A DNA stretch of 64,000 nucleotides from Ignavibacteriales bacterium (GTDB taxonomy: Bacteria > Bacteroidota > Ignavibacteria > Ignavibacteriales > Melioribacteraceae): contig JAPLFG010000003.1 in assembly GCA_026390795.1 (NCBI GenBank), positions 62,001-126,000 of the forward strand, written 5' to 3'. Each line of letters starts with the position of its first letter. The stretch's first letter is position 1. A program made the translations under genes and the position numbers. Below, in pieces: positions 4,827-49,004 of the stretch. The notes below the pieces were generated by a model that was not told the DNA's origin, searched no databases, and saw nothing but the letters and a program-made list of their open reading frames with translations.

Positions 4827-4875
4827 TACTCACACCTCATTTTTTTATTAATTGATTTGGTGTTTTATCAAAAGA

Positions 4876-6378: not shown

Positions 6379-6382
6379 TCAG

Positions 6383-13151: not shown

Positions 13152-13221
13152 TTTTTTCTCCGGTTCTTTTCAAAATAAATATTCATTAAATAATTTTTGA
13201 ATTTTCATTAGCTATAAGACT

Positions 13222-15252
13222 CTACGAATTATTAATAATTTTTTCTGTAACAACAGAAAGAGATCGCCTGATTCTGCTATATATTTTTTCAGCAGTAAAA
13301 CCGAAATGATCTGCTAATACAGATTCAGGAGCAGAAGCACCGAATGTTTCTTGAGAGATTATCAATCCGTTTTGACCTACAAACTTTTGCCAGCCCAATC
13401 CTACGCCAGCTTCTACGCTTACTTTTAAATTGGCTTTTCCATAAAGAATTGAATTCTTGTAATCTTCATTCTGCTTGTCAAATAATTCCCAACTTGGTAC
13501 AGAAATAACTCGAACAGAGTAACCATCTTCCTCTAACATTTTTGCTGCAACAAAAGATGGATTGATTTCTGAACCTGTCGCAAAAATTTCTATCTGAACA
13601 AGTGAATCTTTCTCGCCATATAAAATATATGCCCCGCGTTTTAAACCATTACGTGCTTTTTCTTTTGTTATTTTATTAACCGAGGAAAGTACTGGCTGAC
13701 GTGTAAAACATAATGCAACAGGACCGTCATTAAATTCAAGTGCTGTTGACCACGCTGCTTTAGATTCATTTTCATCGCCAGGTCTTATTGTTACTAAATT
13801 TGGGATAAGGCGTAAAGACATTAAATGTTCAACCGGCTGATGTGTAGGACCATCCTGGCCAATTAAGATCGAATCATGTGAATAGACATAGATTACCCTT
13901 TGTTTCATTAGTGCAGTCATTCGAATGGCATTCCTCATATAATCGGAGAACACCAAGAAAGTTCCTATCACCGGTTGAATCATACCATATAATTGCATTC
14001 CATAAGCGGCAGCGGCCATACTAAATTCACGAACACCAAATTTAATTTGCTGCCGGTCCCAATTGTTTTTATTTACAATCCTATTGCCTGGAAGCCATGT
14101 TAAATCTACGCTGGCAACATCAGCAGAGATCGAAATAAGAAATGGAAGCATTTCTGCAATTTTTGCAATGATCGTTTCATTATATTTTCGTGTCGGTAAA
14201 TCTGATTCCATTTTCAAATTCCAGATTTGTTCTCCAAAGTCATCTGGTAGTTTTTTCTCTGAAAATACTTTCCATGTTTTTGATTTAATTGGATCGTTAA
14301 GAATCAATTTCGAAAAGAGTTCATTCCATTTTTTTTCATACTCAATAAACTGCGGTAGAGAATTCAAAAAATATTCTTTGACTTCATCTGGTACGTAAAA
14401 ACGGGTATCTGGCCAGCCGATCTCTTTTTTAAATTCTTTCATCTCATCGGGATCGAGAAACTTTCCATGTATTGAATTTGTGCCTTGTCTTGAAGTAGAA
14501 TGTTTTCCAATAATAGTTTGGGCAATTATCAAACTCGGTTTTTCCTTTTCAGTTCTTACATCATTAAAGACCACTTCCATCTGATCAAAGTCATATCCGT
14601 CAATCCGGTATACATTAAAACCATATGCTTCATATCGTTTAGCTACATCTTCATTAAAACATTCAGATGTAGGACCATCCAGACACACATTGTTGGAATC
14701 ATAGATTATTACAAGGTTATTCAATCCAAGATTACCAGCAAGACTACCCGCCTCAGAACTTATTCCTTCCATCATGCAACCATCACCGGCAAGGACAAAT
14801 ATTTTTGAGTTAAATAATTCATTACCGAATCTTGCCGATAGTAATTTCTGCGCTATTGCCATTCCAGTTGCAGCACCAATTCCCTGCCCTAATGGGCCTG
14901 TAGTTGTTTCAACGCCTTGTGTAATTCCATATTCAGGATGACCAGGAGTTTTTGAATTGAGCAGACGAAAATTTTTAATATCATCCAGACTCAAATCATA
15001 ACCGCATAGATGAAGTAACGCATATTGAAGCATTGATCCATGGCCGGCTGAGAGTATAAATCTATCTCTTCCCATCCAATTAGGATTTTTAGGATTATGT
15101 TTCATCACTTTTGTAAATAGAAAAGCACCAATCTCAGCAGCTCCTAGAGGCAATCCGGGATGACCGGACTGCTGTTTTTCAATCGCATCTGCAGAAAGAG
15201 CACGTACAGTATGTGATATTTTTTGTAATATGTTTTTTTCTTCTTTTAGCAT
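13222..15252 (-). CDS. tkt: Transketolase
   Basis: A full-length 676-residue transketolase in one chain. The thiamine pyrophosphate domain has GHGSMLQYALLHL, GPLGQG and the GDG...N motif from GDGCMMEG (about residue 155) to YDSNN. The pyrimidine-binding domain has FGVREFSMAAAAYG with the catalytic glutamate and HDSILIGQDGPTHQPVEHL. The C-terminal domain has GASAP near the end. It transfers two-carbon ketol units in the pentose phosphate pathway. A dedicated copy in a glycan cluster suggests that the imported sugar enters metabolism through pentose or keto-acid intermediates. It is cytoplasmic and was probably recruited as a second copy of the housekeeping enzyme, which cannot be tested within this window. 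Confidence 0.95.
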   Translation of the reverse strand: MLKEEKNILQKISHTVRALSADAIEKQQSGHPGLPLGAAEIGAFLFTKVMKHNPKNPNWMGRDRFILSAGHGSMLQYALLHLCGYDLSLDDIKNFRLLNSKTPGHPEYGITQGVETTTGPLGQGIGAATGMAIAQKLLSARFGNELFNSKIFVLAGDGCMMEGISSEAGSLAGNLGLNNLVIIYDSNNVCLDGPTSECFNEDVAKRYEAYGFNVYRIDGYDFDQMEVVFNDVRTEKEKPSLIIAQTIIGKHSTSRQGTNSIHGKFLDPDEMKEFKKEIGWPDTRFYVPDEVKEYFLNSLPQFIEYEKKWNELFSKLILNDPIKSKTWKVFSEKKLPDDFGEQIWNLKMESDLPTRKYNETIIAKIAEMLPFLISISADVASVDLTWLPGNRIVNKNNWDRQQIKFGVREFSMAAAAYGMQLYGMIQPVIGTFLVFSDYMRNAIRMTALMKQRVIYVYSHDSILIGQDGPTHQPVEHLMSLRLIPNLVTIRPGDENESKAAWSTALEFNDGPVALCFTRQPVLSSVNKITKEKARNGLKRGAYILYGEKDSLVQIEIFATGSEINPSFVAAKMLEEDGYSVRVISVPSWELFDKQNEDYKNSILYGKANLKVSVEAGVGLGWQKFVGQNGLIISQETFGASAPESVLADHFGFTAEKIYSRIRRSLSVVTEKIINNS

Positions 15253-15294: not shown

Positions 15295-16884
15295 TTAGAG
15301 ATTATTATTTCTCATAACATTTCGAAATGTGTAATTCAGATTTTCCTCGTTGTTTTTACCGATGAAGAAACTCAGTACAAGTCCAAGAACTAAGGTGGCG
15401 AAGAATGAAATAGCCGCAGGCCATAGGACGCCCACTGAGAATGCGTCTATTCCCCATTTTTTACCAAATACTAAAAGGGAGCCGAAAAGAAATCCAAGAA
15501 AACCTCCGATCAATGTAGCTGGTGCTGTTGCTCTTTTAGAGAACATACCTAAAATAAATACTCCAAATAACGGTCCAGTAAACATGTTTATAAGTTTTTG
15601 TGAGTAGTCGAAGATGTTACCCATTTCTCCTACAAAGCAAGCGCCGATTGTAACTATTAATCCAAGAATGAGTGACGAATATCTTGCAATTTTTAAACGA
15701 CGATCTCTCTCTTCATTTGATACTTCACCGGCATCAAGATTATATACTTTTAATTTATACCGCCCGTAAAAGTCATTTAGTATTGCAGCGATGCTTGAGT
15801 TTATTCCGGAATTTAGACTCGACATGGACGCGCCGTAAATAGCAGCAACCATTAAACCGGTAACACCAACAGGCATGACGTTTGCGATAAAGTATGGGAA
15901 GATGTTATCGATGGCCAATGTTTTAGGAAAGTTTAAATGGATCGCAACTGCATACAATCCAAATCCGATGAAAGTAACTAAAACTATATATAATAGATAA
16001 GCATAGGCATTGGTTAAAAATCCTTTTTTACTTTCCGCCAATGATTTTCCGGTTAAATAGGTTTGGACCATCGCCTGGTCCACACAGTAGTTTCCCATTT
16101 TTTGAACTGAATAAGTAATTATAAGTGAGACAATTGTAATGTCTGTTACTAAATAGAGTCTTATCTTACCAAATAGACCTGCGTCGTCGAAACCGGGAAT
16201 ATTAGCAGTTAGATTTGTCTTTCCTGCAGCGACAAGCATAGACCATACTTCAGAAATACCACCGGGTACCGCGGTAAATACTAAGATAACAGCGAGTATC
16301 ATTCCCGCAAACATTACAAACGAATGAATTACGTTGGACCACATAGTAGCTTTCATACCGCCAAGTGCTGTAGTTATAGTGGTTATGAGTCCCATAACCA
16401 GAATAGATGGGATAAGCGGAATTTTTCCGTTTGTTACAACACTTAGCACCATGGAAGGAACGTAGATAATTGCAGCCATCCATGTAAGACGCCATAAAAT
16501 AAATATAGCGCTCGCCAATGCACGGACTTCAGTATTAAATCTTCTTTCCAGATATTCATAAGCAGTTACAACTTTCAGTTTGTGATAAAAAGGAATGAAA
16601 ATCTTGACAACTACCGGATATGAAATTGGAATTGCCAGCGCCATCCATAACATTATCAGTCCATATTTGTATGAACCCGCTGGAAATGCCATGTAACCAA
16701 TCGCACTTGTTAATGTAGCCAGAAGCGACATACCAACTGGAAACCAACTCATTGTTCTTCCAGCAAGTAAAAAATCATTTGTCGATTTCTGTCGTTTATA
16801 CATATAAAGACCAAATCCGATAATCCCAAACACATAAGTAAAAGCTATAACTGCATCAATCGTTGTAAATCCGCTAGACTGCAT
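15295..16884 (-). CDS. Sodium:solute symporter (SSS family)
   Basis: A 529-residue integral membrane protein of the solute:sodium symporter family, within the usual length range. Visible motifs are the N-terminal periplasmic start and first helix, FLLAGRTMSWFPVGMSLLAT, AYEYLERRFN after helix 3, ALGGMKATMWSNVIHSFVM, and the SMSSLNSGINS segment of helix 9. It imports a sugar, sialic-acid-like compound or monocarboxylate with sodium. It lies between transketolase and the beta-helix protein with short gaps. With the MFS carrier at the end of the run, the cluster has two different uptake routes across the inner membrane, possibly for monomer and acid. Substrate not determinable. Confidence 0.9.
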   Translation of the reverse strand: MQSSGFTTIDAVIAFTYVFGIIGFGLYMYKRQKSTNDFLLAGRTMSWFPVGMSLLATLTSAIGYMAFPAGSYKYGLIMLWMALAIPISYPVVVKIFIPFYHKLKVVTAYEYLERRFNTEVRALASAIFILWRLTWMAAIIYVPSMVLSVVTNGKIPLIPSILVMGLITTITTALGGMKATMWSNVIHSFVMFAGMILAVILVFTAVPGGISEVWSMLVAAGKTNLTANIPGFDDAGLFGKIRLYLVTDITIVSLIITYSVQKMGNYCVDQAMVQTYLTGKSLAESKKGFLTNAYAYLLYIVLVTFIGFGLYAVAIHLNFPKTLAIDNIFPYFIANVMPVGVTGLMVAAIYGASMSSLNSGINSSIAAILNDFYGRYKLKVYNLDAGEVSNEERDRRLKIARYSSLILGLIVTIGACFVGEMGNIFDYSQKLINMFTGPLFGVFILGMFSKRATAPATLIGGFLGFLFGSLLVFGKKWGIDAFSVGVLWPAAISFFATLVLGLVLSFFIGKNNEENLNYTFRNVMRNNNL

Positions 16885-16936
16885 AAAATTACTCCTGTTA
16901 ATTATTTGTTTTCCAAAAATTCACTTCCCATCTCCA

Positions 16937-18604
16937 TTATTTTTGCATTTCGTAATTAGGGAGAATCTCAAAGTTAGAATTATCGGCGGTTTTTTCTGAT
17001 ACATTCCCCCATACATTAAATTTATTTTTATCAACTTTACAAACAACACTCCAGAAGTCTCCAATTCGTATTGTTCTACCTAACAAGGTCTGAGCATTTT
17101 CGATATTTTTGGTTTCAATTATTGTTTGGAAAATTTTTCCATCGAATGAATTCTTTACAATATCTCCGGTTATGCTTTTATTATTGATACCAATTTGCTT
17201 ATATGAATTGTCTTTACCGGTAACCTGTTCATTCACATTATTATTATTTACAGTAATTGTTTCATTCTTTCTTAATTCAATTCCAATCTTACCTTCATTT
17301 TCAAGAATGATATTCTTCTCTATTAAAGAAGGAACGAAATAGCTGAAATTATTTGAATACTTGATGCTGATTTTTCCTTTATTGTTCATTATAATATTAT
17401 TCTTCAGTTCCATATAAGAATCAACACATTGTATAGCTCCGCCGGATTGATTGTTCACAATGATATTATCGGAAATAAGTGCACGCCCTTCTTTACTTAA
17501 TCGAACACCACCCGCACCACCGTTCATGGTCCAGTTGCCTGCAATAAAATTGTTTGTAATAACCGCATGACTTAAATGCATTACATAAATACCGCCGGCA
17601 TCGTCATCGGAAATATTTCCTACAATCCAATTGTCGTTAATCGTCGGATAGGAAAAATCTTCAACGTAAATAGCTCCCGCGTCGCTGTTTCCTTTAGCGC
17701 GGTTTGAAACAATAATATTATTTTCAATTATTGGTCTTGATTCATTCGAGCATGATATTGCACCTCCGTTACTGGTGCGGGACTGACTAATATCATTTAC
17801 ACCTGCCGTATTTTGAATGAAGACATTATTTCTAACTACTGCTCTTCCCGATCCTTCCATAAAATTGTTTTCAATTCTTTTATCCGTTGCATGTCTTTCT
17901 CTAAGCCAGCCGAAAAATGAAAGAGCGCCACCGTCACCGATTGAAGTTCTGTTATTATAAAAAATGTTATTTCGTATTGTTGGAATTCCATTATAACGAC
18001 AAGCAATTCCTCCACCCATATTTCCTTTTTGATGAATTCTTGTGTAATTGAAATTTTCCGGTTCCATGACGTAATTATTTACTATAAAACAATTACTGAT
18101 TTCGGGAGAAGTATCATCGCATAAAATTCCACCGCCATCGGAACGAGCTATTCCTTTTATAATTGAAACTCCGTCAATACGCGCATCATCTGCACCAACA
18201 GCAACTCGCCGGCTGTAATCACCGTCAAGAATTGTGGGATTCGCATGAATGTCCCGCTCCCATGATGTATTACTGAAACCGCCGAAAATATCTACGTACG
18301 ATTTCATTTGTACTGTGCCATCCTTATAAATTCCCGCAGCGACAAGCAATGCTGTTACATTATCTTTTGAATTCTGGGTTATAATATTTAATGCGAATAG
18401 AATTGTACTCCACGGTTTAACCCGGGAGCCATTACCGTCTTTATCAGAGCCGTTAATTTGAGAGACATAAAAAACTTGTTTGTACTTTGCTAGATCCACT
18501 TTTTCAGTGGTTGGTCCAACTTTGGAAATATCTTTTGACTGACCGAATGAGTATCCGCAGATAAAATAAATTGCGAGAAAAATTATTAGAAGATTTTTTT
18601 TCAT
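16937..18604 (-). CDS. Exported right-handed parallel beta-helix protein (pectate-lyase-like fold)
   Basis: About 555 residues with a signal peptide (MKKNLLIIFLAIYFIC to GYSFGQ). An N-terminal segment FYVSQINGSDKDGNGS, typical of DUF1565/parallel beta-helix starts, is followed by many short coils of the form NNxxxxNxA/G. Examples are ISNCFIVNN, IRNNIFYNN, VRNNVFIQN, IENNIIVSN, ITNNFIAGN and ISDNIIVNN. This is the solenoid of polysaccharide lyases (PL1, PL9), GH28 and surface binding proteins. ATG 18604 is preferred over an upstream in-frame TTG directly after the stop of the preceding gene, because it begins a proper signal peptide. A small C-terminal beta domain of about 100 residues follows the helix. 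No catalytic residues can be named with confidence; a lyase or hydrolase acting on acidic polysaccharide is plausible. Confidence 0.75.
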   Translation of the reverse strand: MKKNLLIIFLAIYFICGYSFGQSKDISKVGPTTEKVDLAKYKQVFYVSQINGSDKDGNGSRVKPWSTILFALNIITQNSKDNVTALLVAAGIYKDGTVQMKSYVDIFGGFSNTSWERDIHANPTILDGDYSRRVAVGADDARIDGVSIIKGIARSDGGGILCDDTSPEISNCFIVNNYVMEPENFNYTRIHQKGNMGGGIACRYNGIPTIRNNIFYNNRTSIGDGGALSFFGWLRERHATDKRIENNFMEGSGRAVVRNNVFIQNTAGVNDISQSRTSNGGAISCSNESRPIIENNIIVSNRAKGNSDAGAIYVEDFSYPTINDNWIVGNISDDDAGGIYVMHLSHAVITNNFIAGNWTMNGGAGGVRLSKEGRALISDNIIVNNQSGGAIQCVDSYMELKNNIIMNNKGKISIKYSNNFSYFVPSLIEKNIILENEGKIGIELRKNETITVNNNNVNEQVTGKDNSYKQIGINNKSITGDIVKNSFDGKIFQTIIETKNIENAQTLLGRTIRIGDFWSVVCKVDKNKFNVWGNVSEKTADNSNFEILPNYEMQK

Positions 18605-18640
18605 ATGAATGCCACCATGTTTAATAAAAATTTTGTTCAA

Positions 18641-21463
18641 CTAGTTTTTAAATTTGATTTCTACACTTTTTAGCACCGGCGTATCTGCACCATTATCCAT
18701 ATTAAACACCGCTCTGTATTGGAGCCACTTACCGGAAATATTTTTTATTTGTTTGTTTTGCGTTGTATAGTATGAATTAATCCCAGAAGGTCCTCGCCAT
18801 TCTGCGCCTGCAAGATCCTTTTCGGAATCGGCTGAACGGAGTTGAAATTTAATTGAAGTTTTAGATGGAGTCTCTGCTTGCCAGTTAATGGAAACGGGTT
18901 TGGAATTATCTGAATTATATGTTGATGAAAAATAGCTGTACGTGTTTTTTCTATCTGAAATATTCCCAACGTCGACTCCCATGTTATAATGAGCGCCAAC
19001 ACTTGGTATCTTAAGTACGTTTTTATCTGAGAAACCATTTGGGCTTCCCCAGTATAAAAGCGAATTAGTGTGGTGATCGCTGTAATCATTTATTTCATCA
19101 TAACTTCCGTCCGCACGATGGCAATAGAAAAAAATATCGTTAAATCCGTCATGATTAAAATCGCATATCAATGCGCCGGTGCCGCCATCGGTAGGAAATT
19201 TTAAAACGTTGTTGATGCTGAACCCATTTTTACTGCCGAGCAATACAGTTGAATACCAGCTTCGCTTTCCGTTGCCGCTGTAAAATGGACACGCCAGATC
19301 GAGCCAGCCGTCATTATTTACATCGCCGATTGTCATTGTTTTTGCTTGAACCGGGATTAGAATTGGAAGACCGAATTTGTGATTTTTATCTTGGTAATAG
19401 ATGAGAACATTTTTATCGTGAGCAAAGGCAAGGTCCAATAATCCGTCTTTATTTAAGTCGGCAACACCCGCCATACCGGAGCCCTGACTGTTTTGAAGTT
19501 GTACTGAATTTTTAATGCTGTAGTTGCGTGTTCCATCTCCGTAAAAAATTGTTGCCAGTCCGCCTTTTTTCTGATTACCAAAAACAAGATCCAAAAAACT
19601 ATCATTGTTGATATCGCATACAGTTGCCGCTCTGGTTAATTCAATCGGCAAAACGGTTCTATCTTCAACAGGCCATCCTTTGTCGCTTCCCCAATAAATA
19701 AATGATCCGTCGGTTACTTTGTCCGGCATATTAACCGGTGCGCCTCCGTTTGAGACTATTATGTCTAAGTAACCATTACGATCCAGATCAGCTACCTGAA
19801 CACCAAGCCCATTGTAGCTTGGCAATCCAGACATATCCCATGTGCTGAATTTGTTTTCGTTGTTCCAATAGATATATACTTCATTTGCTACACGGTTAGT
19901 TTCTCCTCTATTTACCATTAGCACATCAACTTTTCCATCATCATTTAGATCGGCAAAAGCCTGCTCATAAGCTTCACGCCCCGGTAATTCAATTCTATGT
20001 TTTTCGTCAAAACTACCATCAGATTTTCCAAAGTATAAGTAAGAGGGATCGTAATCGCCGCGTGAATTTCCCATCATCGATGTAATTAGTATATCCGGAT
20101 ATCCGTCATTATTAAAATCGGCAATTGAATTTCCTTCAGCTCCGTGTTCATATAACGGTGTGCGTTTAGTTTCTTTAAATCCTTCCGGACCATTCCAATA
20201 AATAAAAGAAGGAACTTCATACGAATATTGTTCCTGATTATTACAGACTAAAAGATCAATCCATCCATCGTTATTTAAATCCGCGGCATTAGCTCCCCAA
20301 GCACCGATAGTTGGAATTGACTGTCTATTTTTATTACTGAATCCATTAGATGAACCGAAATAGAGATATGAATCTATTAGGCGGCTTGCAAGATTTGGAT
20401 CGCCACTTAGAGAGTATTGATGGTTAGTAAAAAAGAGATCTGTAAAACCGTCTTTGTTGAAATCCGCTGCTACTACATCCTTTGCGTCGTAAGTTTCAAA
20501 TACAATTCTTCTGTTACTATCAAACTTACCGTCTATGTTTGTATATGCATAGGAAGCAAAGCTATCCTCGCAGGCAAATACTAAATCCTGTGTTCCATTA
20601 TTATCAACATCGGCAACTTTAACCGAAGAAGCTTTATCAGTCGGTAATTCGACAAAATTGTTTTCGTTATAACCATCTTTGCCTCCATAATAGATATAGG
20701 ATGTTTTCCCTTCGCTGTTTGCAAATACAAGATCGAGCCAGCCATCATTGTTGAGGTCTGATGTAACTACATCTGTCGCACCATCTGTGGCAATGTCGGT
20801 GAAGTGTTCATTACTGTAACCATCTTTTCCGCCCCAATAAATTCTAGAGTTTGATGAACCCTTTTTATTTTTGTCACGGTATTCCCAGAATCCGCTTGAG
20901 AAAGCAAAGACGATATCCTTGTAACCGTCTTTATTAAAATCACCAACCGCAGCTTTTTGAGCAGATGAACTTTTTAATGATACTCTCTTTTTGAAAGGAT
21001 AGAACGCCCATTCTCCTTTTTTCTTTTTGTAGTTTTTATCCAGGCCGCCGTAATAAATGAATGAGTCCATATTAGTCCAGGTGCCGTTTGAATAATTCGG
21101 CACAACAAGATCCATGTTACCGTCATTATCCAAATCATTCGCGGTAGCCCACATTGGACCATTAGCAGGAATATAGCTATGATTCTGTATGCTAAAGTCT
21201 TTGCCGTTACCCCAATAAATTGACATATCCAGTTTTTCGACTAACGAATGAGAGTTTACACAAAGAATGTCTACGTTCCCATCATTGTTTACATCCCAGC
21301 GATTGATTGCCTGAATGCGGCCGTTATGAGAAACATACATATTGGCCCCGGCATCACTAAAAGTACCCTTCGAAAAATCTTTAAAGCTGTTCTGCGTCCA
21401 GACATGCTGACCCAATAAAGTGCATGTACTTATCAATAATACGGTGAAAATCTTTTTAATCAT
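18641..21463 (-). CDS. Giant VCBS/FG-GAP double-propeller secreted protein, paralogue 1
   Basis: A 940-residue exported protein (signal peptide to about residue 20). It contains exactly 14 copies of a calcium-loop motif of the form DxNxDGxxD, such as DVNNDGNVD, DLDNDGNMD, DFNKDGYKD, DLNNDGWLD and DFNHDGFND. Each is followed by a hydrophobic strand, and each sits roughly 45-70 residues from the next. Fourteen repeats fit two seven-bladed propellers of the integrin-alpha/VCBS type. The N-terminus has DAGANMYVSHNGRIQ and the C-terminus a beta domain of about 90 residues with INWQAETPSKTSIKFQLRSA. No T9SS tail or catalytic motif was seen. It is more divergent than the next two paralogues. A glycan-binding or calcium-dependent adhesive or catalytic role is inference. 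Some rhamnogalacturonan lyases (PL11) use a related calcium propeller. Confidence 0.8.
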   Translation of the reverse strand: MIKKIFTVLLISTCTLLGQHVWTQNSFKDFSKGTFSDAGANMYVSHNGRIQAINRWDVNNDGNVDILCVNSHSLVEKLDMSIYWGNGKDFSIQNHSYIPANGPMWATANDLDNDGNMDLVVPNYSNGTWTNMDSFIYYGGLDKNYKKKKGEWAFYPFKKRVSLKSSSAQKAAVGDFNKDGYKDIVFAFSSGFWEYRDKNKKGSSNSRIYWGGKDGYSNEHFTDIATDGATDVVTSDLNNDGWLDLVFANSEGKTSYIYYGGKDGYNENNFVELPTDKASSVKVADVDNNGTQDLVFACEDSFASYAYTNIDGKFDSNRRIVFETYDAKDVVAADFNKDGFTDLFFTNHQYSLSGDPNLASRLIDSYLYFGSSNGFSNKNRQSIPTIGAWGANAADLNNDGWIDLLVCNNQEQYSYEVPSFIYWNGPEGFKETKRTPLYEHGAEGNSIADFNNDGYPDILITSMMGNSRGDYDPSYLYFGKSDGSFDEKHRIELPGREAYEQAFADLNDDGKVDVLMVNRGETNRVANEVYIYWNNENKFSTWDMSGLPSYNGLGVQVADLDRNGYLDIIVSNGGAPVNMPDKVTDGSFIYWGSDKGWPVEDRTVLPIELTRAATVCDINNDSFLDLVFGNQKKGGLATIFYGDGTRNYSIKNSVQLQNSQGSGMAGVADLNKDGLLDLAFAHDKNVLIYYQDKNHKFGLPILIPVQAKTMTIGDVNNDGWLDLACPFYSGNGKRSWYSTVLLGSKNGFSINNVLKFPTDGGTGALICDFNHDGFNDIFFYCHRADGSYDEINDYSDHHTNSLLYWGSPNGFSDKNVLKIPSVGAHYNMGVDVGNISDRKNTYSYFSSTYNSDNSKPVSINWQAETPSKTSIKFQLRSADSEKDLAGAEWRGPSGINSYYTTQNKQIKNISGKWLQYRAVFNMDNGADTPVLKSVEIKFKN

Positions 21464-21493
21464 TATTAGTGTTCCAACAAATTTTAATATTTA

Positions 21494-24289
21494 TTATCTT
21501 TTTGAAAAAGCAATTTCTACAGATGTCAAATACGGTGTTGCTGCATCATTCGGTGTTATCAAACGAGCACAATACTGTATAAACTTTCCGTTCAATCCTT
21601 TAATCTCACTTCCGGTTTTTGTATACCATGAATTTGTACCAGAGGGACCTTGCCATTCTGCAGTTTGAATTTCATTCTCAGAATCTGCAACTCGAATTTG
21701 AAAATTTACAGATGTACCAAATGGTGTCTCTGCTTCCCATTTTATTGATGAAGGAATTTCATTTTTGCTTAGCTGATGAATGGAAGAAAAATAATCTTCA
21801 TATAATCCTCTATCATAACTATTACCCGGATCCCGTAAATTAAGTCCGCTTGGTCCAACCGCCATGAATTCCGATCTGTTGTTTTTTGAAAAGCCATTCG
21901 GTCCGCCCCAATATAATAATGAAGGGCAAGTATGTCTGTGAGGTTCGGGTTCAATATAAGAACCTGCTCTACGGTGATCGCATATTAAAAGATCGAGCCA
22001 GCCGTCGCCGTCGAAATCCAATGCGCACGAACCGGATGAACCGTAAGTTTCAAGTTCGGTACGGTCGGTTTTAAATCCGTCTTTACTGCCCCAATAAATT
22101 AATGATGGACGATTTCCGCTGACTTCTCCGCCATAACTAGCCAGAAAAATATCAAGCCACCCGTCATTGTTAAAATCCGCAATACTATTCTGATAAGGCA
22201 CATAAGATTTTATTTGAATCATGTTATTGTTATTATAACCATTTGGAGAACCGTAATAGATATAGGAAGTGGATTCGGTTCCATCGGGATTTCCTCTATG
22301 AGGCAAAAGCAGATCAATCCAACCGTCTTTATTAAAATCTGAACCCTGGATATACATTAGTTCATCATTACGCGGGAGTGTGAGATCAGTAAAACGGTCG
22401 TCCGAAAAACCATCCTTGCCGCCCCACCAGAATCTTACTTTACCAAATTCAAGTTGTCCCGCAATATCCAGCCAACCATCATTGTTTAAATCCATTAGAA
22501 GTGGTCCGCGCATTCTGTCTCTAGTAATATGCAATACACTTCTGTTCTTAAAACTGTAACCTTTTGCTGATCCCCAGAATATCGGGAATCCGTGTTTCTC
22601 CGGATTATTCAGATCGATACAACTTCCGCTGCCAAGAATATCCAAATAACCATCTCTATTTATATCGGCAATTCTAACACCGCCATAAGCAACTTTCATT
22701 GTTAAATTTGTCTGCTCATCGAATGTACCATCTTTGTTCCATTTTATTCCAAGTCCGCCCTGATCATGTTTTATGTTCGCAATAAATTTTTGCAAAGCCA
22801 TTATTATATCAACATTGCCGTCATCGTCTAAGTCGGCAGATCCAAATCCGAAAATCTGATGAGTATTAAATTCGGTAATTCTTTCCTTAGAGAAATTTCG
22901 AGTTCCATCGCCCCAATAGAGTGTAGAGATTGCGGCACCGTCCTTCATATATCCGCTGTCATTAAAAAATATTAGATCGGGCAATCCATCATCGTTAACA
23001 TCACCTATTGTGTTTGCTATTGATCCTTGGGTTGGTAATTGTGTGTGATTCTCAAACCGGAATGTCCCTTTGTCGTTCCAGTAAACATATGACAGCAAAT
23101 CATTTTCATTGATCACATACTGATTACTAAAAACAATTTCAGGATAACCGTCATTATTTAAATCACCACAGCTAACTCCGCTGGCTCCAAGAGTTGGAAG
23201 AGCCAGAGGTTTGCGAGTTGAAAAATCTTTTCCATCAGAATAAAAAACGTAAGAATTAGTCCAAGTTGCGCCACCTTCAGTTTCAAGGTTAGCTGCAACA
23301 ACATCATCAAATCCATCTTTATCTAAATCCAAAAGAGCAACATCGCTTGCATGACTTACCGGCAATAAAATTGAATCAGTTAATTCATAACTACCATTGC
23401 CTTTCCCCTTTAGAATCAAAACTCCATCTTTTGTACAGACTGCTATATCATATTTTCTATCTTTATTTATATCACCAATTACTACTGCCTCGCCTTTGAC
23501 TTTCAGTGAAACCGCATTATTTATATTTTTAAATGCGTCTTTCGAAGACAACAACAAATACAAATTCTCTTTAGTTAAGAAAACAAGATCATCAATTCCG
23601 TCTCCATCAAGATCCTTAGAGGCTAATGCCACTGCACCTTGACCGCTATAAGCAATATCAGTATGATTATTTGCGCTGAATCCCGACGGTGAATTCCAAT
23701 AGATAAAACTTTTACGCGGAACACTTTCATCTTCGTTATCACCATAGTACTGGCATCCGACTGCTAAATCCAACCATGAATCACCATTGAAATCTCCCGC
23801 AACTACTGCAGTACCTTCAGCTGCAGGCAATTCTGTTCTGTTACTGGGAGTAAAACCATTTTTAGTCCCGTAGTAAACCCATGTTGGAACTTTTGGAACA
23901 TGACTATCGCGGTAATTTACAACCGCGAGATCATTCAAACCGTCTTTATTAAAGTCGGCAATCAAACCATCACGCGATCCGCCGCCCGGTAAATCTATCC
24001 GGGAGCGGGCATCAATATCAGTTCCATTATTCAAATAGATATATGTATTTTCTTTCTCGGTTTGACCATGACCGGCTGGCAGAAAGAAATCCAGGTTACC
24101 ATCATTATTAAAATCCCATCTTGTAATAATCTGAATTCTTCCTTTGGCAGAGACGTAACAGTTGCTGCCGGCATCTAAAAATTGCCCCTCAGCAAAATCC
24201 ATAAAATTATTTTGCTTCCAGACATTTTGCCCCATTAACAAGCAAGAAAAAAATAAAACAAATGTGATCGCTCTAGAAATCATTACCAT
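21494..24289 (-). CDS. Giant VCBS/FG-GAP double-propeller secreted protein, paralogue 2
   Basis: About 931 residues with a signal peptide (ITFVLFFSCLLMGQ) and again 14 DxDxDG-type calcium loops, from DFNNDGNLD to DFDGDGWLD. The N-terminal DAGSNCYVSAKGRIQIITRWD and the last 150 residues (PSLLYWGGPNGFSKNN, then SIKWEAETPFGTSVNFQIR) are almost identical to paralogue 3, the 24312-27140 gene, so this pair arose by a fairly recent tandem duplication. ATG 24289, behind TTGGAATAT, is preferred; the next ATG at 24283 is also possible. Recurrent YWG, FWG and WWGG motifs place aromatic residues at the propeller tops, common in carbohydrate-binding surfaces. Function inferred only. Confidence 0.8.
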   Translation of the reverse strand: MVMISRAITFVLFFSCLLMGQNVWKQNNFMDFAEGQFLDAGSNCYVSAKGRIQIITRWDFNNDGNLDFFLPAGHGQTEKENTYIYLNNGTDIDARSRIDLPGGGSRDGLIADFNKDGLNDLAVVNYRDSHVPKVPTWVYYGTKNGFTPSNRTELPAAEGTAVVAGDFNGDSWLDLAVGCQYYGDNEDESVPRKSFIYWNSPSGFSANNHTDIAYSGQGAVALASKDLDGDGIDDLVFLTKENLYLLLSSKDAFKNINNAVSLKVKGEAVVIGDINKDRKYDIAVCTKDGVLILKGKGNGSYELTDSILLPVSHASDVALLDLDKDGFDDVVAANLETEGGATWTNSYVFYSDGKDFSTRKPLALPTLGASGVSCGDLNNDGYPEIVFSNQYVINENDLLSYVYWNDKGTFRFENHTQLPTQGSIANTIGDVNDDGLPDLIFFNDSGYMKDGAAISTLYWGDGTRNFSKERITEFNTHQIFGFGSADLDDDGNVDIIMALQKFIANIKHDQGGLGIKWNKDGTFDEQTNLTMKVAYGGVRIADINRDGYLDILGSGSCIDLNNPEKHGFPIFWGSAKGYSFKNRSVLHITRDRMRGPLLMDLNNDGWLDIAGQLEFGKVRFWWGGKDGFSDDRFTDLTLPRNDELMYIQGSDFNKDGWIDLLLPHRGNPDGTESTSYIYYGSPNGYNNNNMIQIKSYVPYQNSIADFNNDGWLDIFLASYGGEVSGNRPSLIYWGSKDGFKTDRTELETYGSSGSCALDFDGDGWLDLLICDHRRAGSYIEPEPHRHTCPSLLYWGGPNGFSKNNRSEFMAVGPSGLNLRDPGNSYDRGLYEDYFSSIHQLSKNEIPSSIKWEAETPFGTSVNFQIRVADSENEIQTAEWQGPSGTNSWYTKTGSEIKGLNGKFIQYCARLITPNDAATPYLTSVEIAFSKR

Positions 24290-24311
24290 ATATTCCAAAT
24301 AAATTTGTTCT

Positions 24312-27140
24312 TTACTTTATTTTTGAAAATGTTAATTCTACCGAAGTCAAATAAGGTGTTGCTGCATCATTCGGTGTTATCAACCGGGCACGATACTGTA
24401 TAAACTTTCCACTCAATTCTTTTATCTCACTTCCGGTTTTTGTAAACCATGAATTTGAACCAGCCGGACCCTGCCATTCTGCATTTTGAATTTCTTTTTC
24501 AGAATCTGCTGCACGGATTTGAAATTTCACAGATGTTCCAAATGGTGTTTCTGCTTCCCATTTAATTGATGAAGGAATTTCATTTTTATTTATTTGATGA
24601 ACTACAGAAATATAATCTTCGTATAAACCGCGGTCATAACTGTTACCCGGGTCCCGCAAATTAAGTCCGCTTGGTCCAACCGCCATGAATTCCGATCTGT
24701 TGTTTTTCGAGAAACCATTCGGTCCGCCCCAATACAATAGTGAGGGGCAAATATGCCTATGAGGTTCCGGTTCAATGTAAGAACCGGATTTACGATGATC
24801 GGCAAATAAAATATCAAGCCAGCCGTCTCCATCATAGTCAAGAACTTCAACACCGGAAGAACCGTAAGTTTCAAGTTCTGTTGGATTCTTTTTAAAACCA
24901 TCCTTGCTTCCCCAATAAATTAACGAAGGACGGTTACCGCTAACTTCTCCCCCATAACTTGTTAGAACTAAATCCAGCCAGCCGTCTTTATTTATATCTG
25001 CAAAACAATTTTGGTAAGGAACATAACTCGGGATTAAGATACGGTTATCATTGCTGAAACCTTTTGGAGAACCAAAATAGAGATATGAGTTATCGATATT
25101 TCCTTCTGGTGCTGCACGATGAGGACAGAACAAATCCAGCCAGCCATCATTATTTACATCTGCGGCAGTGAGATACATAAGTTCATCTTTCCTGCCTAAG
25201 TCAAGTTCGGTAATTCTTTCATCTTTAAAACCATACGGACCGCCCCACCAAAATCTTATTTTACCAAACTCAACTTGTGCAGCAATATCCAGCCATCCGT
25301 CTTTATTCAAATCCATTAATAACGGTCCGCGTATTTTGGGAATGTTAAAATGTAGAACCGTACGATTTTTAAAACTGTATCCATTTGTAGAACCCCAGAA
25401 AATCGGGAAACCATGTTTTGCTGGATCATTCAGATCAACACAATCGCCGCCGGCAAGAATATCCAAATAACCATCTCTATTAATATCAGCAATTCTCACA
25501 CCGCCATATGCAAGATTCATTGTCAAATTTGTCTGTTCATTAAACTTATCTGCCTTACTCCATTCAATTACTAAACCGGCTTGATCATGATTTACATTTT
25601 CAACGAAAGTATTTTTATATGCTTGCATTGCCATAATTATTTCAACATTACCATCATCATCTAAATCCGCATTACCAAATCCGAAAACCTGATGCGTGTT
25701 TATTTCTGTGCTTCTCTCTTTGGAATAATTGCGAGTACCATCACCCCAATAGACAGTAGAGACGGCGGCACCGTCACTAAAATATCCGGCGTTGTTAAAA
25801 AATATCACATCAGGTGAGCCATCATTGTTAACGTCACCAATTGTATTTGCCATTGACCCTTGAGTTAGTAATTGCGTATGATCTTCAAAACGAAACGTGC
25901 CTTTTTCATTCCAATAAACATAAGAGAGCAGATCATGCTCGTTTGTAGAATATTGATTGCTAAAAACTATTTCGGGATAGCCATCGTTATTTAAATCACC
26001 GCAACTAACTCCGCTTGCACCAAGTGTGGGTAGTTTCAATGGTTTTCTTTTAGTAAAATCATTTCCATCAGAATAAAACAGATATGAGTCTGTCCACGTC
26101 GCGCCGCCAGTTGTCTCAAGATTTGCAACGACTACATCATCGAATCCATCTTTATCCATATCTGCAAGGGCAACATCACTTGAATGACTTACAGGCAACA
26201 GAATAGATTCTTTCAAATCATAATTACCTTTTCCCTGGCCTTTTAAAATCAACACACCTTCTTTTGTACAAACAGCTATATCATATTTTTTATCATTATT
26301 CATATCGCCGATTGATAAAGCAGAACCTGTCAATTTAAATTTGACGGCGTTAGTTATTTCTTTAAATACGTCCTTAGTCGATAACAACAAATACAAATTT
26401 TCTTTAGTGAGAAAAAGAAGATCATCTTTACCGTCTCCGTCAATATCTTTTGAAGCTAAGGCTATAGCACCCAAACCATCAAGAGTAATAGCGAGACGAT
26501 TATTAGAATTAAATCCCTTGGGTGAGTTCCAATAAATGAAACTTTTTTTGGGTGCATTTTCATTTTCATTATCACCCCAATATTGACAGCCAACGACTAG
26601 ATCTAACCAGGAGTCTCCATTAAAATCGCCGGCAACGATAGCGGTTCCATCCGCCGCAGGTAATTCAATTCTATTATTAGGTGTAAATCCTTTATTCGTA
26701 CCATAATAAATCCATGCAGGAATTTTACGAGCGTGACTATCATTAAAGTTAACAACGGCTAAATCGTTCAATCCGTCTTTATTAAAATCGGCTACTAAAC
26801 CATCCCGGGAGCCACCTCCAGGTAATTCAATCCGAGAACGGGCATCTATATCTTTACTGTTATTTAAATAGATATATGTATTTTCTTTCTCGGTATGACC
26901 ATGACCCGAAGGTAAAAAGAAATCTAGTTTACCGTCATTATTGAAATCCCATCTTGTAATAATCTGAATTCTTCCTTTGGCAGATACGTAACAGTTGCTG
27001 CCGGCATCTAAAAACGTTCCATTTTTAAAATCATCATATGATGACTGCCGCCAAACCGATTGTGCAGAAATCTGTATAAGACTTATAAACGACATTGAAA
27101 AAAATAACAGTCGAATAAAATAATTTTTTCTTTGTATCAT
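24312..27140 (-). CDS. Giant VCBS/FG-GAP double-propeller secreted protein, paralogue 3
   Basis: A 942-residue exported protein, starting two bases after the stop of the phosphatase gene and so tightly coupled to it. The signal peptide ends near QISAQSVW. Fourteen calcium loops are present, for example DFNNDGKLD, DIDGDGKDD, DMDKDGFDD, DINRDGYLD and DYDGDGWLD. It aligns along its whole length with paralogue 2. A clear difference is an insertion of a few residues around KNTFVENVNHDQAG, where paralogue 2 has FIANIKHDQGG. Two seven-bladed propellers plus a C-terminal beta domain are predicted from the repeat count. A surface or periplasmic binding role, or a lyase, would fit; no enzymatic residues can be assigned. 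Confidence 0.8.
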   Translation of the reverse strand: MIQRKNYFIRLLFFSMSFISLIQISAQSVWRQSSYDDFKNGTFLDAGSNCYVSAKGRIQIITRWDFNNDGKLDFFLPSGHGHTEKENTYIYLNNSKDIDARSRIELPGGGSRDGLVADFNKDGLNDLAVVNFNDSHARKIPAWIYYGTNKGFTPNNRIELPAADGTAIVAGDFNGDSWLDLVVGCQYWGDNENENAPKKSFIYWNSPKGFNSNNRLAITLDGLGAIALASKDIDGDGKDDLLFLTKENLYLLLSTKDVFKEITNAVKFKLTGSALSIGDMNNDKKYDIAVCTKEGVLILKGQGKGNYDLKESILLPVSHSSDVALADMDKDGFDDVVVANLETTGGATWTDSYLFYSDGNDFTKRKPLKLPTLGASGVSCGDLNNDGYPEIVFSNQYSTNEHDLLSYVYWNEKGTFRFEDHTQLLTQGSMANTIGDVNNDGSPDVIFFNNAGYFSDGAAVSTVYWGDGTRNYSKERSTEINTHQVFGFGNADLDDDGNVEIIMAMQAYKNTFVENVNHDQAGLVIEWSKADKFNEQTNLTMNLAYGGVRIADINRDGYLDILAGGDCVDLNDPAKHGFPIFWGSTNGYSFKNRTVLHFNIPKIRGPLLMDLNKDGWLDIAAQVEFGKIRFWWGGPYGFKDERITELDLGRKDELMYLTAADVNNDGWLDLFCPHRAAPEGNIDNSYLYFGSPKGFSNDNRILIPSYVPYQNCFADINKDGWLDLVLTSYGGEVSGNRPSLIYWGSKDGFKKNPTELETYGSSGVEVLDYDGDGWLDILFADHRKSGSYIEPEPHRHICPSLLYWGGPNGFSKNNRSEFMAVGPSGLNLRDPGNSYDRGLYEDYISVVHQINKNEIPSSIKWEAETPFGTSVKFQIRAADSEKEIQNAEWQGPAGSNSWFTKTGSEIKELSGKFIQYRARLITPNDAATPYLTSVELTFSKIK

Positions 27141-27142
27141 AT

Positions 27143-28885
27143 TTATTTTTTACCGGTAAGTTCACTTAGTTTCAATGTCATTGAAAAAACTTTTTCGTTA
27201 TCAATACTATAAGCATCAAATGTAGCTGATGGATCGGGACTAGATGTATCAAACGTTAATAATCCAAAACACTGTTTATCATTGTAACCAAACATCGCAC
27301 CCGGCTCAACTGGATGAACAATTTGATTTGTCAATCGGCAGCTTTCCCAATCATACAAGGTGTAACCATTTGGTCGCTCTATTTTTCTAATATCTGTACG
27401 ATGACGGTCGCCTGAAAGTAGAATTACACCATTAATATTATTGTCTGCCAAGAAGTCAAATATTTCAGTTCTTTCTTCATGAAATCCATTCCAGGTATCT
27501 TTAACACCCGGTTTAGAATCATAAGCCCATGGGGTTCCCGATGCGATAACTTTGAACTTAGCCGTTGATTTTTTCAAAGCATTTAGCAGCCAGGCTTTTT
27601 GAGCCGGTCCTAACTGTGTTGGGTTAACATCATACGGATCTGTGCGGTAAAATCGTCCATCGAGCATAAAAAATTCTACGTCGGCAATTTTAAAATTAAA
27701 CCAGCATGCAGGCCATTCTTTACTTCCGTAAGATGGATTTATCCATTGTTCTTTGAAAATATCGAGCATGGGCATTTTCCAAACGGGTTTATCTTTGTAA
27801 GGTCCCATCCAAACATCATCAGTTGCTGCATCATGATCATCCCAAATTGCATAATTAGAAGTTGAGGAAACTAAATTTCTGAATTCCGTACGTGATTGTC
27901 TCTGATAATAACAATAACGAATATCATCCTGCTGTAACGGTGTGTTGATATAAACATTATCCCCCATCCACAAGAATGCCAATGGATCATGATCTTTGAT
28001 GACATCCCAAATTCTTTCATGCCATGGTGTATAACCTGCACAACCACCGAAGGCCACTTTAAATTTTGTGCCCAAATTGGTTTTGGGATAAGTATTGAAT
28101 GAATAAATTTTTGTTTGATCTGAGACTTTGCCGTTTACTACAACTTCATAAAAATATTGAGTAGCCGGTTTAAGATTATTCACTTTTAATATTGCAGTAT
28201 AATCTTTAGATGCATCACTCTTAATAAGATCCGATTTAATCGCATCTTTCATTGATTTGTTTTTACTTACATTCACTTGAACGTTTACTTCATCAGAAGT
28301 GCGAACCCAGAAACTAGCTCCGTGATCTGTAACCTGACCAAGCATCGGCCCGTGTATGATATTTAAGTTAAATGGAGCTGCATATTTTTTAAATGCTTCT
28401 GATTCTACAAGAGGCTTTAACAGATCGCGCGGTCCTGCAAAAAAACGCCCAAGCGGTAATCCCATATCCACAGCTTTTTTAACCGTTTGAACCGCTTCAT
28501 CAATTTTGTTTTGTTGTGTTAATGCAACAACCAGATTAAAGTATGCTTCCAAATCCTCGCTATCACCTTTTAATGATTCACGGCAAAAATTTTCTGCTTC
28601 CTGTGATTTTCCCGCAATTGTCAAAAGTAAAGCTCTTTGACCACGCCTTTTATATTCTCGCTTGTAATCACGTGCAAAAAATCTACTGCCTAATGCATCA
28701 CCTTCAACATCCCATGAATTTTCAGCACCGTAATATGGATGTTTACTTCCATTCAAGAATGCATCGGGAGGAGCAAATTCACCTAATTCACCATTTTGGC
28801 CGGTTGTTCCTTGTTGGGCTTTAAGTGTGCCCACAGAGTTAATAATTATGATTAGTGTAAAAAGAAAAAAAGATTTTCTAAACAT
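27143..28885 (-). CDS. PhoD-like metallophosphatase with N-terminal TPR region
   Basis: A 580-residue exported protein. After a signal peptide (to about residue 23), residues 70-155 form a TPR-like helical region (QRALLLTIAGKSQEAENFC, LEAYFNLVVALTQQNKIDEA). About residues 180-270 are the Fn3-like N-terminal domain of the PhoD family (GPMLGQVTDHGASFWVRTS). Residues 280-560 are the metallophosphatase with FGGCAGY, MGDNVYINT, WDDHDAATDDVW and LSGDRHRTDIRK, the metal-binding motifs. PhoD enzymes cleave phosphodiesters and monoesters using iron and calcium. A TPR front end on PhoD is unusual. Its coupling to the VCBS genes suggests removal of phosphate or sulfate-like substituents from a glycan, or phosphate scavenging from a phosphorylated polymer; this is inference. 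Confidence 0.85.
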   Translation of the reverse strand: MFRKSFFLFTLIIIINSVGTLKAQQGTTGQNGELGEFAPPDAFLNGSKHPYYGAENSWDVEGDALGSRFFARDYKREYKRRGQRALLLTIAGKSQEAENFCRESLKGDSEDLEAYFNLVVALTQQNKIDEAVQTVKKAVDMGLPLGRFFAGPRDLLKPLVESEAFKKYAAPFNLNIIHGPMLGQVTDHGASFWVRTSDEVNVQVNVSKNKSMKDAIKSDLIKSDASKDYTAILKVNNLKPATQYFYEVVVNGKVSDQTKIYSFNTYPKTNLGTKFKVAFGGCAGYTPWHERIWDVIKDHDPLAFLWMGDNVYINTPLQQDDIRYCYYQRQSRTEFRNLVSSTSNYAIWDDHDAATDDVWMGPYKDKPVWKMPMLDIFKEQWINPSYGSKEWPACWFNFKIADVEFFMLDGRFYRTDPYDVNPTQLGPAQKAWLLNALKKSTAKFKVIASGTPWAYDSKPGVKDTWNGFHEERTEIFDFLADNNINGVILLSGDRHRTDIRKIERPNGYTLYDWESCRLTNQIVHPVEPGAMFGYNDKQCFGLLTFDTSSPDPSATFDAYSIDNEKVFSMTLKLSELTGKK

Positions 28886-28985: not shown

Positions 28986-30725
28986 TCAACGATATTTCCT
29001 TCCGCCAAACGGATAGGGTTCTTTAATAACTTCCTGTTTGTACTTTACGGTCATTTCTTTTGGCAAACGTGAAGAATAGATTAAATCATCAAAGAAAACA
29101 TCTACATATTTCCCGCCTTTTCTTGGACTTAGTAAACCGAACCGGTTAAATTTTGATCCGGTCTTTCGCTGCTCTGCTGTTAAATCATATGAAAACTTAT
29201 CATTACCCAGTGTTACAGTTATTCTTCCGGATTTGCCGGAACTAGGGTCGTAATCAAATGTGAATTGACGTGAGATGCGATCTGGAATTATGATTGGACC
29301 GCGTAATTCTTCTGAGATATTTTGCTTTGGCGAGCAGACAGCAGTAAAACTATAACCCAGCGCAGTTTGGTCCATTACCTCAAGACCTAAATACTGATTC
29401 GGAGGATTACCTTTATACTCACCTTGAACAGGAGCCATTTTTTCTTCTTTATTGAAATATCCAATCAGCATTCTTCCGTCAACGGCTCCCTCGGTAAAAG
29501 TGATTTTACCGGAAAATTTTATTGGGTCTTCGAGAGTCATTTCACCAATATCGGCTGCGTAAAATCCTTGGAGAGGGTCTTTAACTTCAGTGCCCCAGAA
29601 TCTTCCACCAATCTCGCCTGGTTTTTCACCGGCCCAGTTTGTTTGAGCATAACCGTAATTATGCCGTGAATGAAAATCGGTTTCCGTAAATGTTACTTTG
29701 TTATTTAAACCTTGCCAGTGCGGATCTTGGGACAGATCAATCTTCTTACCATTTACAATTAGATCACCAACATAAAATTCTAAACTGCCGGTATAAATCT
29801 GCACGTTATAAATACCAAAGCGGTTCATAATTGTTGGCAAATCTTGGTGACCCGGAATTACATAATAGCTTACCGACTGACCATCAAATGTGAATGTGAT
29901 TTTTCCTTTAATTTTTTCCGGATTTTTTTCCAGAGTCCATAAATGATAGGTATCCTTTCTATACCAATCATCCACCAAGCCGGCATCGCGAGCTTTTAAA
30001 AGTAAATCCAACAATTTTTCTTTTGTCATCGAAGGATCATCTTTTTGAATTGCGACCAAAAGAGTATCCGTATGAACACTTCCGATTCTTCCTTCAAAAT
30101 ATTTGGGTAATCTTTCATCCGGCCATTTTTCTTGTGCAACACTCATATTAGGATCGTACTTCAACTCCCATGTATGAACCGATCCGTTACCCTGAATTTC
30201 CAAATCGGGAAATAAGTTTGCACCATTTGCTGTCCCTGTTTTGTAATCAATAAAAAAACGAGTTTTACCGCCTATCATATCTCCCATTCGAAATCCGCAT
30301 GACGACCATACACGCCATCCTTGCCGTTCAGCATTGAAAAATCCAATGTAAAATCCTACGCCGCCTTCAGGCGGAACTATAACCGCAATTTTTCCCGATG
30401 CGGAAAATGGATCTTTAAATGAAAGCGGTTTATTTATTGGCATGGCATAAAAAGCGGGTGTGGTAGATCTCCAGATTACTCCGCCAATTTCTCCAGGACC
30501 AAATCCGGTTTTATTGGTCGCTGCCCATCCAAAGTTTTGTGTAATAGTGGGGCAATCAATACCCTCAACTCTATTGTTTACTCCTTCCCACTTAGGATCG
30601 TTATCAAAATTTTCGGTGATGCTAATAATTTTTGAATTGGTCTGTGCTAATAACGTGACTGGTAATAAACAAATTACATAAATCAATAAATTTTTAATGG
30701 ATCTCGCTTTCAAGATATACCTCAT
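28986..30725 (-). CDS. Secreted protein with an internally duplicated beta-rich domain, family not recognised
   Basis: A 579-residue exported protein; the signal peptide ends at VTLLAQT. The two halves are copies of one module. The first has DPKWEGVNNRV, FGWAATNK, PGEIGGVIWRS and FYIGFFNAE. The second has DPHWQGLNNKV, YGYAQTNW, PGEIGGRFWGT and MLIGYFNKE in the same order. Each half then has a VTLGNDKFSYDL/FTFDGQSVSYYV strand pattern and a FNRFGL/MNRFGIYN motif, typical of concanavalin-like jelly rolls. The arrangement suggests a glycan-binding or family-unassigned lyase/hydrolase with tandem beta-sandwiches. It is conserved in order with the phosphatase and the GH43-like propeller. I do not recognise a named family. 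Confidence 0.6.
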   Translation of the reverse strand: MRYILKARSIKNLLIYVICLLPVTLLAQTNSKIISITENFDNDPKWEGVNNRVEGIDCPTITQNFGWAATNKTGFGPGEIGGVIWRSTTPAFYAMPINKPLSFKDPFSASGKIAVIVPPEGGVGFYIGFFNAERQGWRVWSSCGFRMGDMIGGKTRFFIDYKTGTANGANLFPDLEIQGNGSVHTWELKYDPNMSVAQEKWPDERLPKYFEGRIGSVHTDTLLVAIQKDDPSMTKEKLLDLLLKARDAGLVDDWYRKDTYHLWTLEKNPEKIKGKITFTFDGQSVSYYVIPGHQDLPTIMNRFGIYNVQIYTGSLEFYVGDLIVNGKKIDLSQDPHWQGLNNKVTFTETDFHSRHNYGYAQTNWAGEKPGEIGGRFWGTEVKDPLQGFYAADIGEMTLEDPIKFSGKITFTEGAVDGRMLIGYFNKEEKMAPVQGEYKGNPPNQYLGLEVMDQTALGYSFTAVCSPKQNISEELRGPIIIPDRISRQFTFDYDPSSGKSGRITVTLGNDKFSYDLTAEQRKTGSKFNRFGLLSPRKGGKYVDVFFDDLIYSSRLPKEMTVKYKQEVIKEPYPFGGRKYR

Positions 30726-43863: not shown

Positions 43864-43867
43864 AAGT

Positions 43868-48954: not shown

Positions 48955-49004
48955 TTCAATGACCTCTCGATTTCGATTACAATATCATTGACAACTTTTA
49001 ATCG

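Follow-up and report, generated by a model that had tools for sequence, protein, structure and literature searches.

Tandem beta-propeller proteins from an Ignavibacteriales genome: a possible carbohydrate-active double-propeller family of the VCBS/FG-GAP supercluster

Proteins built of FG-GAP/VCBS repeats are common in environmental bacteria, where they are usually left as unknown, and the beta-propeller fold that they adopt is also that of several polysaccharide lyases (PL), PL22 among them. The propellers of the VCBS supercluster, calcium-bearing blades and propeller lyases are all already known. The PL42 enzyme FoRham1 is described as relying on histidines located on a single face of its seven-bladed propeller, and among the relatives of BT3686 a change from His to Gln has been noted (PMC8377490); PL11 carries calcium blades, and a stabilising or regulatory part in propellers is attributed to the calcium of such loops (PMC3123361); VCBS-like propellers are typically linked to carbohydrate recognition (PMC9218822; PMC8023676). 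Here we consider three consecutive genes for proteins of this kind, A, B and C, in a 64,000-nt stretch of an Ignavibacteriales genome (assembly GCA_026390795.1, contig JAPLFG010000003.1, positions 62,001 to 126,000), referred to in its whole length as the window. We read them, with a probability of roughly 45%, as secreted, calcium-stabilised double propellers of an undescribed VCBS/FG-GAP family that are carbohydrate-active and most plausibly have a lyase-kind site in the second propeller; no description of the double-propeller family was found in the open-licence PubMed Central literature. The wider proposal is put forward tentatively, the odds leaning against it: that they typify a new carbohydrate-active enzyme family, spread over Verrucomicrobiota, Planctomycetota, Ignavibacteriota and several candidate phyla, with one complete seven-bladed propeller inserted in another's first blade and an active site to which the outer propeller contributes its first and its last blade.

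The genes are three consecutive open reading frames (ORFs) on the minus strand, transcribed in the order C-B-A: protein C (24312..27140, 942 amino acids), an FG-GAP/VCBS double propeller; protein B (21494..24298, 934 amino acids as listed), a recent duplicate of C; and protein A (18641..21463, 940 amino acids), an old paralog of C. ORFs, loops and Pfam matches support all three assignments, with structural models added for C and A and a tree for A and B. Gaps of 0-30 bases separate the three from one another, from the preceding TPR/PhoD-like gene and from the following beta-helix gene. The listed start codon of B is TTG, with in-frame ATG codons just downstream, so that its true start is uncertain, and all three N-termini look signal-like by eye. 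At 934-942 residues the proteins hardly deserve the label "giant" that a first-pass annotation of this DNA had given them, but its count of 14 calcium loops in each of three tandem proteins holds: the relaxed definition D-x-[DN]-x-[DNS]-[GKRSN]-x-x-[DE] gives exactly 14 in every protein, about 45-65 residues apart, against some 0.2 expected in residue-shuffled copies (means 0.16-0.22, maximum 2-3, 2000 shuffles per protein), and the stricter patterns DxNxDG and Dx[DN]x[DN]G occur 10, 8 and 8 times and 13, 12 and 12 times in the three proteins. The number itself was rejected as a functional signature or family hallmark, since 28 further homologs (one truncated) have 6-14 loops, the losses falling mostly in blades 2-8. 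All three proteins match FG-GAP_3 (PF13517; 214.8-227.5 bits, cut-off 26.9) and FG-GAP (PF01839; 104.5-131.9 bits, cut-off 22.1), the only other Pfam family listed being a weak FAM234 propeller match. B and C share 76% of their amino acids and, over 2793 positions, 75.7% of their nucleotides, for which "near-identical", as they had been called, is too strong, and A shares 33-36% of its residues with them (36% with B, about 34-35% with C).

The models, of C (predicted local distance difference test score, pLDDT, 79.5; predicted template modelling score, pTM, 0.61) and of A (pLDDT 74.8, pTM 0.60), give the clearest picture for blades 2-8, which form a complete seven-bladed propeller 1 at C residues 107-469 (25734..26822, minus strand, as are all features below). 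Residues 107-468 align with the EPTP chain of LGI1 (5y2z_H, residues 232-552; Z 29.8, 302 residues aligned, root-mean-square deviation 2.4 Å) and residues 85/107-469 with integrin heads at Z about 30 (integrin alpha-IIb, Z 30.3), both by VIA-align; residues 107-468 also align with aldos-2-ulose dehydratase (4a7y; Z 28.9, 342 residues, 3.4 Å). Because this segment covers loops 2-8 and a whole seven-bladed domain, propeller 1 is complete without loop 1. Blade 1, at C residues 51-104 (26829..26990), with H80 and E84 (H72 and E76 in A), is thought instead to close propeller 2, whose blades 9-14 are placed by homology with A at C residues 478-830 (24651..25709), blade 14 bearing H782 and H796 (H782 and H797 in A). 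A C-terminal beta domain follows at residues 845-942 (24315..24608), with conserved R876, W889, Q915 and Y916; its sequence matches in the PDB do not improve on E 0.7. On the side of A, residues 494-823 align with LGI1 residues 232-521, about six of its seven blades, and residues 465-808 with aldos-2-ulose dehydratase at Z 23.1, and eight rows pair A from residue 58/59 to 833/837 with cytochrome cd1 (356-365 residues aligned, Z 23.3-23.6). These last rows span some 780 residues and hence skip the middle of A, which fits blade 1 combined with blades 9-14. Cytochrome cd1 has eight blades, so the rows leave the blade number of propeller 2 unsettled; seven follows from the loop count. We infer from the models that propeller 1 (blades 2-8) is probably inserted into propeller 2 (blade 1 and blades 9-14). 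The earlier expectation of two seven-bladed propellers therefore survives in part, one being complete and the other, in the models, consistent with seven, in an arrangement that looks nested rather than sequential.

The closest described relatives share the fold and differ in what is built on it. With the VCBS/FG-GAP supercluster (PF13517, PF01839), A, B and C have in common the blade repeat with its Pfam match, loops of the Dx[DN]xDG type, the propeller fold (weaker for the second propeller), the signal-like N-terminus and an additional beta domain, and they depart from it in their apparently nested 14 blades and in a family-specific conserved N-terminus and patch of blades 13, 14 and 1. The fold is likewise shared with the lyases PL42, PL24, PL25 and PL11, which are described as single propellers of seven blades, or eight in PL11, whereas A, B and C are double. 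The PL11 Pfam model has no match in the three proteins at E 0.001; their Pfam scan lists FG-GAP-type families and the FAM234 match alone, the coverage of PL22, PL24, PL25 and PL42 by Pfam being unchecked, and polysaccharide-lyase structures are not among the matches listed for the C and A models (50 rows), which does not exclude a likeness. Aldos-2-ulose dehydratase, a sugar-converting enzyme with a VCBS-type seven-bladed propeller, resembles A and C at the level of the fold (10-12% identity) and is not among the PDB sequence matches of the propeller proteins. The integrin alpha head and LGI1 EPTP have the same seven-bladed fold as propeller 1 at 10-17% identity and in a different context. DDB1 has a propeller closed by distant parts of the chain, and its chains top the Foldseek whole-chain lists; like other multi-propeller WD40 proteins it belongs to an unrelated blade family, with TM-scores of 0.11-0.36 in the DDB1 rows listed.

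Conservation singles out the outer propeller. We compared 48 homologs, 22-70% identical to A (median 26%), and retained positions outside the loops where a majority polar residue occurs in at least 85% of the 48 rows, numbering as in A. H782 is kept in 47 rows and H797 in 46, one truncated row lacking both; N41 occurs in all 48, Y43 in 46, S801 in 45, R838 in 46 and E76 in 43 (Q in four, Y in one). Position 72 holds H in 23 rows and Q in the other 25; as 22 of these have H at 74, a histidine stands at 72 or 74 in 45 of 48. H825 is histidine in 42 rows and R734 arginine in 44, the corresponding residues of B and C being S and G, respectively. A itself agrees with the family majority at all conserved polar positions outside the loops but one, 741 (L, against Y in 43 of 48). 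Eleven of the positions that pass, with 741 in addition, fall in the N-terminal segment and blades 1, 13 and 14 (N41; Y43, S45, Q51 and E76; Y728 and R734, blade 13 also holding position 741; H782, H797, S801 and H825), as against three in blades 2-8 (S365 in blade 6, T385 in blade 7, Y477 in blade 8) and none in blades 2-5 and 9-12. The calcium loops follow the same division: at blades 1 and 9-14 between 43 and 48 of the 48 rows keep the canonical form, at blades 2-8 between 19 and 41 do. With blade 1 as the closing blade of propeller 2, blades 13, 14 and 1 would be adjacent in the ring and the patch would form one surface; its histidines would then lie close in space. This agreement of the conservation with the proposed closure is, as we see it, the strongest argument for both, neither being known independently. 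Among 20 full-length homologs, R55, H72 and H782 are invariant and H797 is found in 19, and among A orthologs invariant polar residues are more frequent in BC loops (24 of 141) than in DA (7 of 112) or in CD plus D (7 of 146), and denser again in the calcium loop (46 of 126) and strand C (21 of 84). By sequence, H782 and H797 are a conserved histidine pair, which may correspond to the catalytic pair on the face of propeller lyases.

The aromatic motifs on which the first-pass annotation had built its glycan-binding platforms appear in a different light. YWG, FWG and WWGG, placed by eye, recur in most blades where strand C ends and in loop CD, and the conserved G and W of loop CD are a general trait of the VCBS supercluster (PMC8023676), so the motifs are weak evidence for such platforms, look like scaffold, and were set aside as a sign of sugar binding. 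Some of the aromatics may nevertheless contact sugar, by analogy with PVL and tachylectin-2, in which a GW in the following loop, DA', helps to form the sugar pocket (PMC8023676). The proteins may still be lyases or glycosidases, as also envisaged at first pass, on the ground of the conserved His/Glu patch that had not then been named.

The family is sparse and scattered. Within its own genome only A, B and C match (E 0.001); of 57 genomes including this one, 19 match C, the others (17 or 18 of 56 relatives) partially and weakly (best E 2e-16), and among the 395 genomes of a phylum search this one alone passes E 1e-60. A scan of genome contigs gave ten loci in metagenome-assembled genomes (MAGs) labelled Ignavibacteriales, KSB1, Calditrichota, Chlorobiota, Omnitrophota, Opitutales and Planctomycetota, and all nine genomes that carry them match on a repeat search. 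Wider searches at stated cut-offs, which count the centre genome among the matches, found members in 6 of 297 genomes in the class of genome G426, 20 of 337 in the phylum of G431 and 4 of 343 in that of G430. So patchy a spread suggests horizontal transfer. A-type and C-type orthologs are each present in MAGs of Ignavibacteriota, KSB1, Calditrichota, Omnitrophota and Planctomycetota, and in a 20-row tree A groups with the A-type proteins of other phyla and B and C with the C-type ones (both clades 100/100), the pair of B and C (99/99) excluding an Ignavibacteriales C-type protein. Since the tree thus places A and B/C in separate multi-phylum clades, the A/C split is old and the B/C duplication later; the recent stepwise triplication suggested at first pass is rejected, a recent step applying to B and C only. 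The tree and the 48-row alignment omit partial sequences, L109 being too short, and the duplicates L116, L117 and L120, the alignment retaining the truncated row L113. The A copy at locus L034 is interrupted by a frameshift and by runs of X; it does not enter the structure alignments and trees and stands only in alignments not drawn on here. C-type genes are duplicated both in locus L031 (3-3767) and in the window (21494-27140); in a short-fragment tree the L031 copies pair at 93/92 and B and C at 87/87, a modest support that hints, from these sequences, at separate, parallel duplications or gene conversion.

The surroundings bear out the carbohydrate setting proposed at first pass. The propeller genes lie in a same-strand (minus) run, a putative operon, from an MFS transporter (8568..9917) to a YiaK-type 3-dehydro-L-gulonate 2-dehydrogenase over its NCBIfam cut-off (39163..40194; the run as a whole, 8568-40194). 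Downstream of A come a right-handed beta-helix protein (16937..18640), which adjoins A in the window and in L031, L032, L034, L037 and L079, then a sodium:solute symporter (15295..16884), a transketolase (13222..15252), a short-chain dehydrogenase (12387..13151), a BNR/sialidase-like protein (11191..12357) and a URO-D family protein (9985..11082). Upstream of C lie a protein with a TPR segment and then a PhoD-like phosphatase domain (27143..28885), whose homologs adjoin the propellers in L034 and L038 also; a 579-residue protein without Pfam match (28986..30725), of a family that recurs near propeller genes, with homologs in L033, L034, L036 and L038; a 476-residue protein without Pfam match (30750..32180), GH32-like by eye only, with a strong homolog in L079 (42%) and a weak one in L052; a DHDPS-family protein that falls short of the NCBIfam cut-off for every named function (32195..33097); a TonB-dependent outer-membrane receptor (33182..35974); a protein with a type IX secretion sorting tail (36064..37872); and an IclR regulator (37981..38778). 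The planctomycete locus L033 has three copies of the 579-residue family (12999-14846, 16551-18032, 21590-22861) and, at 4524-6468, a URO-D protein beside a B12-binding protein, a pairing as in corrinoid methyltransfer systems; the cluster in the window also has its URO-D gene. Symporter and transketolases recur in L031 and L034, and other loci carry a sulfatase, a PfkB kinase, an aldo/keto reductase, the glycoside hydrolase (GH) GH38, URO-D with a B12-binding protein, a GFO/IDH oxidoreductase and DHDPS. In 18 wider regions, chosen by hand from the loci of the G431-phylum and G430-phylum searches, a symporter of the same cluster stands directly beside the family member in five, a DHDPS-family gene occurs in four, and a GHL10-type cluster gene in five, three of them Pfam-confirmed (L123, L124 and L127; the L082 member has no Pfam match, and the scan did not cover L122 and L132); the overlap filter of this count hid the family member itself in L132. 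GH2, GH38, a GDSL esterase and a sulfatase each occur once near family members. The neighbourhood points to glycan or sugar-acid utilisation without a single substrate: pectin, ulvan, and apiose-containing or methylated glycans were considered on account of the transketolase, sulfatase and URO-D neighbours, but no consistent marker singles one out. Elsewhere in the window stand a second carbohydrate cluster (47029-63108), with two putative glucoamylases, three GH3, one GH5 and a CotH kinase, three proteins of which carry type IX sorting tails, and, in a row, an RND efflux pump, a membrane fusion protein and an outer-membrane channel (40759-46390).

A number of observations weigh against a lyase-kind site in a nested second propeller. 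The models are of moderate quality (pTM about 0.6), and one row of the A model (3jct_x, 54..479) joins blade 1 to propeller 1. Conservation extends to the link (R838, S846) and to the C-terminal domain (R876, W889, Q915, Y916), where its role is possibly structural; R55 was dropped as a site residue because, although invariant in 20 rows, it holds in only 25 of the larger set of 48; and C-type orthologs have few BC-loop invariants (7 of 142). The relation between conservation and ring distance from the junction, a post hoc test designed after the conservation pattern had been seen, is uneven, with rho -0.97 for propeller 2 and -0.13 for propeller 1 of A, and -0.83 for propeller 1 and -0.31 for propeller 2 of C. 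The weak point of a lyase reading in particular is the patchy occurrence of unsaturated-uronyl hydrolases (PF07470), which would be expected with a uronate lyase and are found in only 9 of 18 family-bearing genomes (seven over cut-off), so that GH88/GH105 was discarded as a marker of a lyase pathway; the genome studied here has four matches, none within the window. One such match, G891:C9:4908-5834, lies close to a family member.

The most serious alternative, which we hold to be appreciably short of even odds, is that these are non-catalytic, lectin-like proteins that capture glycans, akin in role to surface glycan-binding proteins of utilisation loci, and hold polymer with one or both propellers for neighbours such as the beta-helix and PhoD-like proteins. 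The carbohydrate recognition typical of VCBS-like propellers speaks for it, as do the two or three adjacent copies, which suit a binding array, the co-conserved beta-helix protein, which could be the enzyme, and the absence from B and C of two residues conserved in the family. However, the near-invariant His, Glu and Arg, maintained at 22-70% identity and across several phyla, are in our judgement more typical of catalysis or metal binding than of lectin pockets, and, by sequence, the conserved polar residues lie mostly in a few blades and do not suggest a pocket for each blade, the pattern of PVL-type and tachylectin lectins being a sugar pocket repeated between successive blades. Rather improbable, in our estimate, is a metal-dependent dehydratase, isomerase or hydrolase that acts on small sugars, analogous to aldos-2-ulose dehydratase, and not a polymer lyase. 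Propeller 1 of C does align with that VCBS member, neighbouring oxidoreductases suggest oxidised sugars, and the His/His/His-or-Gln/Glu composition would, by analogy, suit a metal site, but the likeness is one of fold, at 10% identity and level with that to integrins, and it lies in propeller 1 and not in the conserved patch. Integrin-like structural or adhesion proteins of the cell surface, whose patch would serve folding or docking to the C-terminal domain, are very unlikely, for even with integrins and cartilage acidic protein 1 as the best PDB sequence matches and a possibly structural role of R838, R876, Q915 and Y916 in the link and C-terminal domain, the carbohydrate-gene setting that recurs in several phyla and the His-rich patch argue otherwise.

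On the reading that we prefer, of carbohydrate-active double propellers with a lyase-kind site in propeller 2, A, B and C would be exported, to judge from their N-termini, and act outside the inner membrane in the uptake and breakdown of glycans. The insertion of propeller 1 would set the N-terminal blade beside blade 14 and so assemble the patch, and the outer propeller would present its His/His/His/Glu/Arg residues as a working site on carbohydrate, with propeller 1, the more variable, perhaps setting binding and specificity. Lyase chemistry is favoured because a propeller lyase uses histidines on one face and because the neighbourhood suggests sugar acids; it might proceed by beta-elimination with histidine as base or acid, or through a metal held by His and Glu. 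Products could pass by way of the outer-membrane receptor, the symporter or both to a catabolism of the sugar-acid type, with the DHDPS-family enzyme, the reductases and the transketolase. A, which keeps the patch, is the best candidate for an enzyme, and B and C, with G and S at the equivalents of R734 and H825, may have changed specificity, serve as binding partners or have another target.

Should the patch prove catalytic, a class of FG-GAP/VCBS proteins would gain a candidate active site (H782, H797, E76, H72/74, R838) and a role in glycan turnover, and the nested closure, if true, would make for an unusual propeller-enzyme architecture. Should the proteins only bind, the family would still mark a recurring glycan-utilisation module that is usable for annotation.

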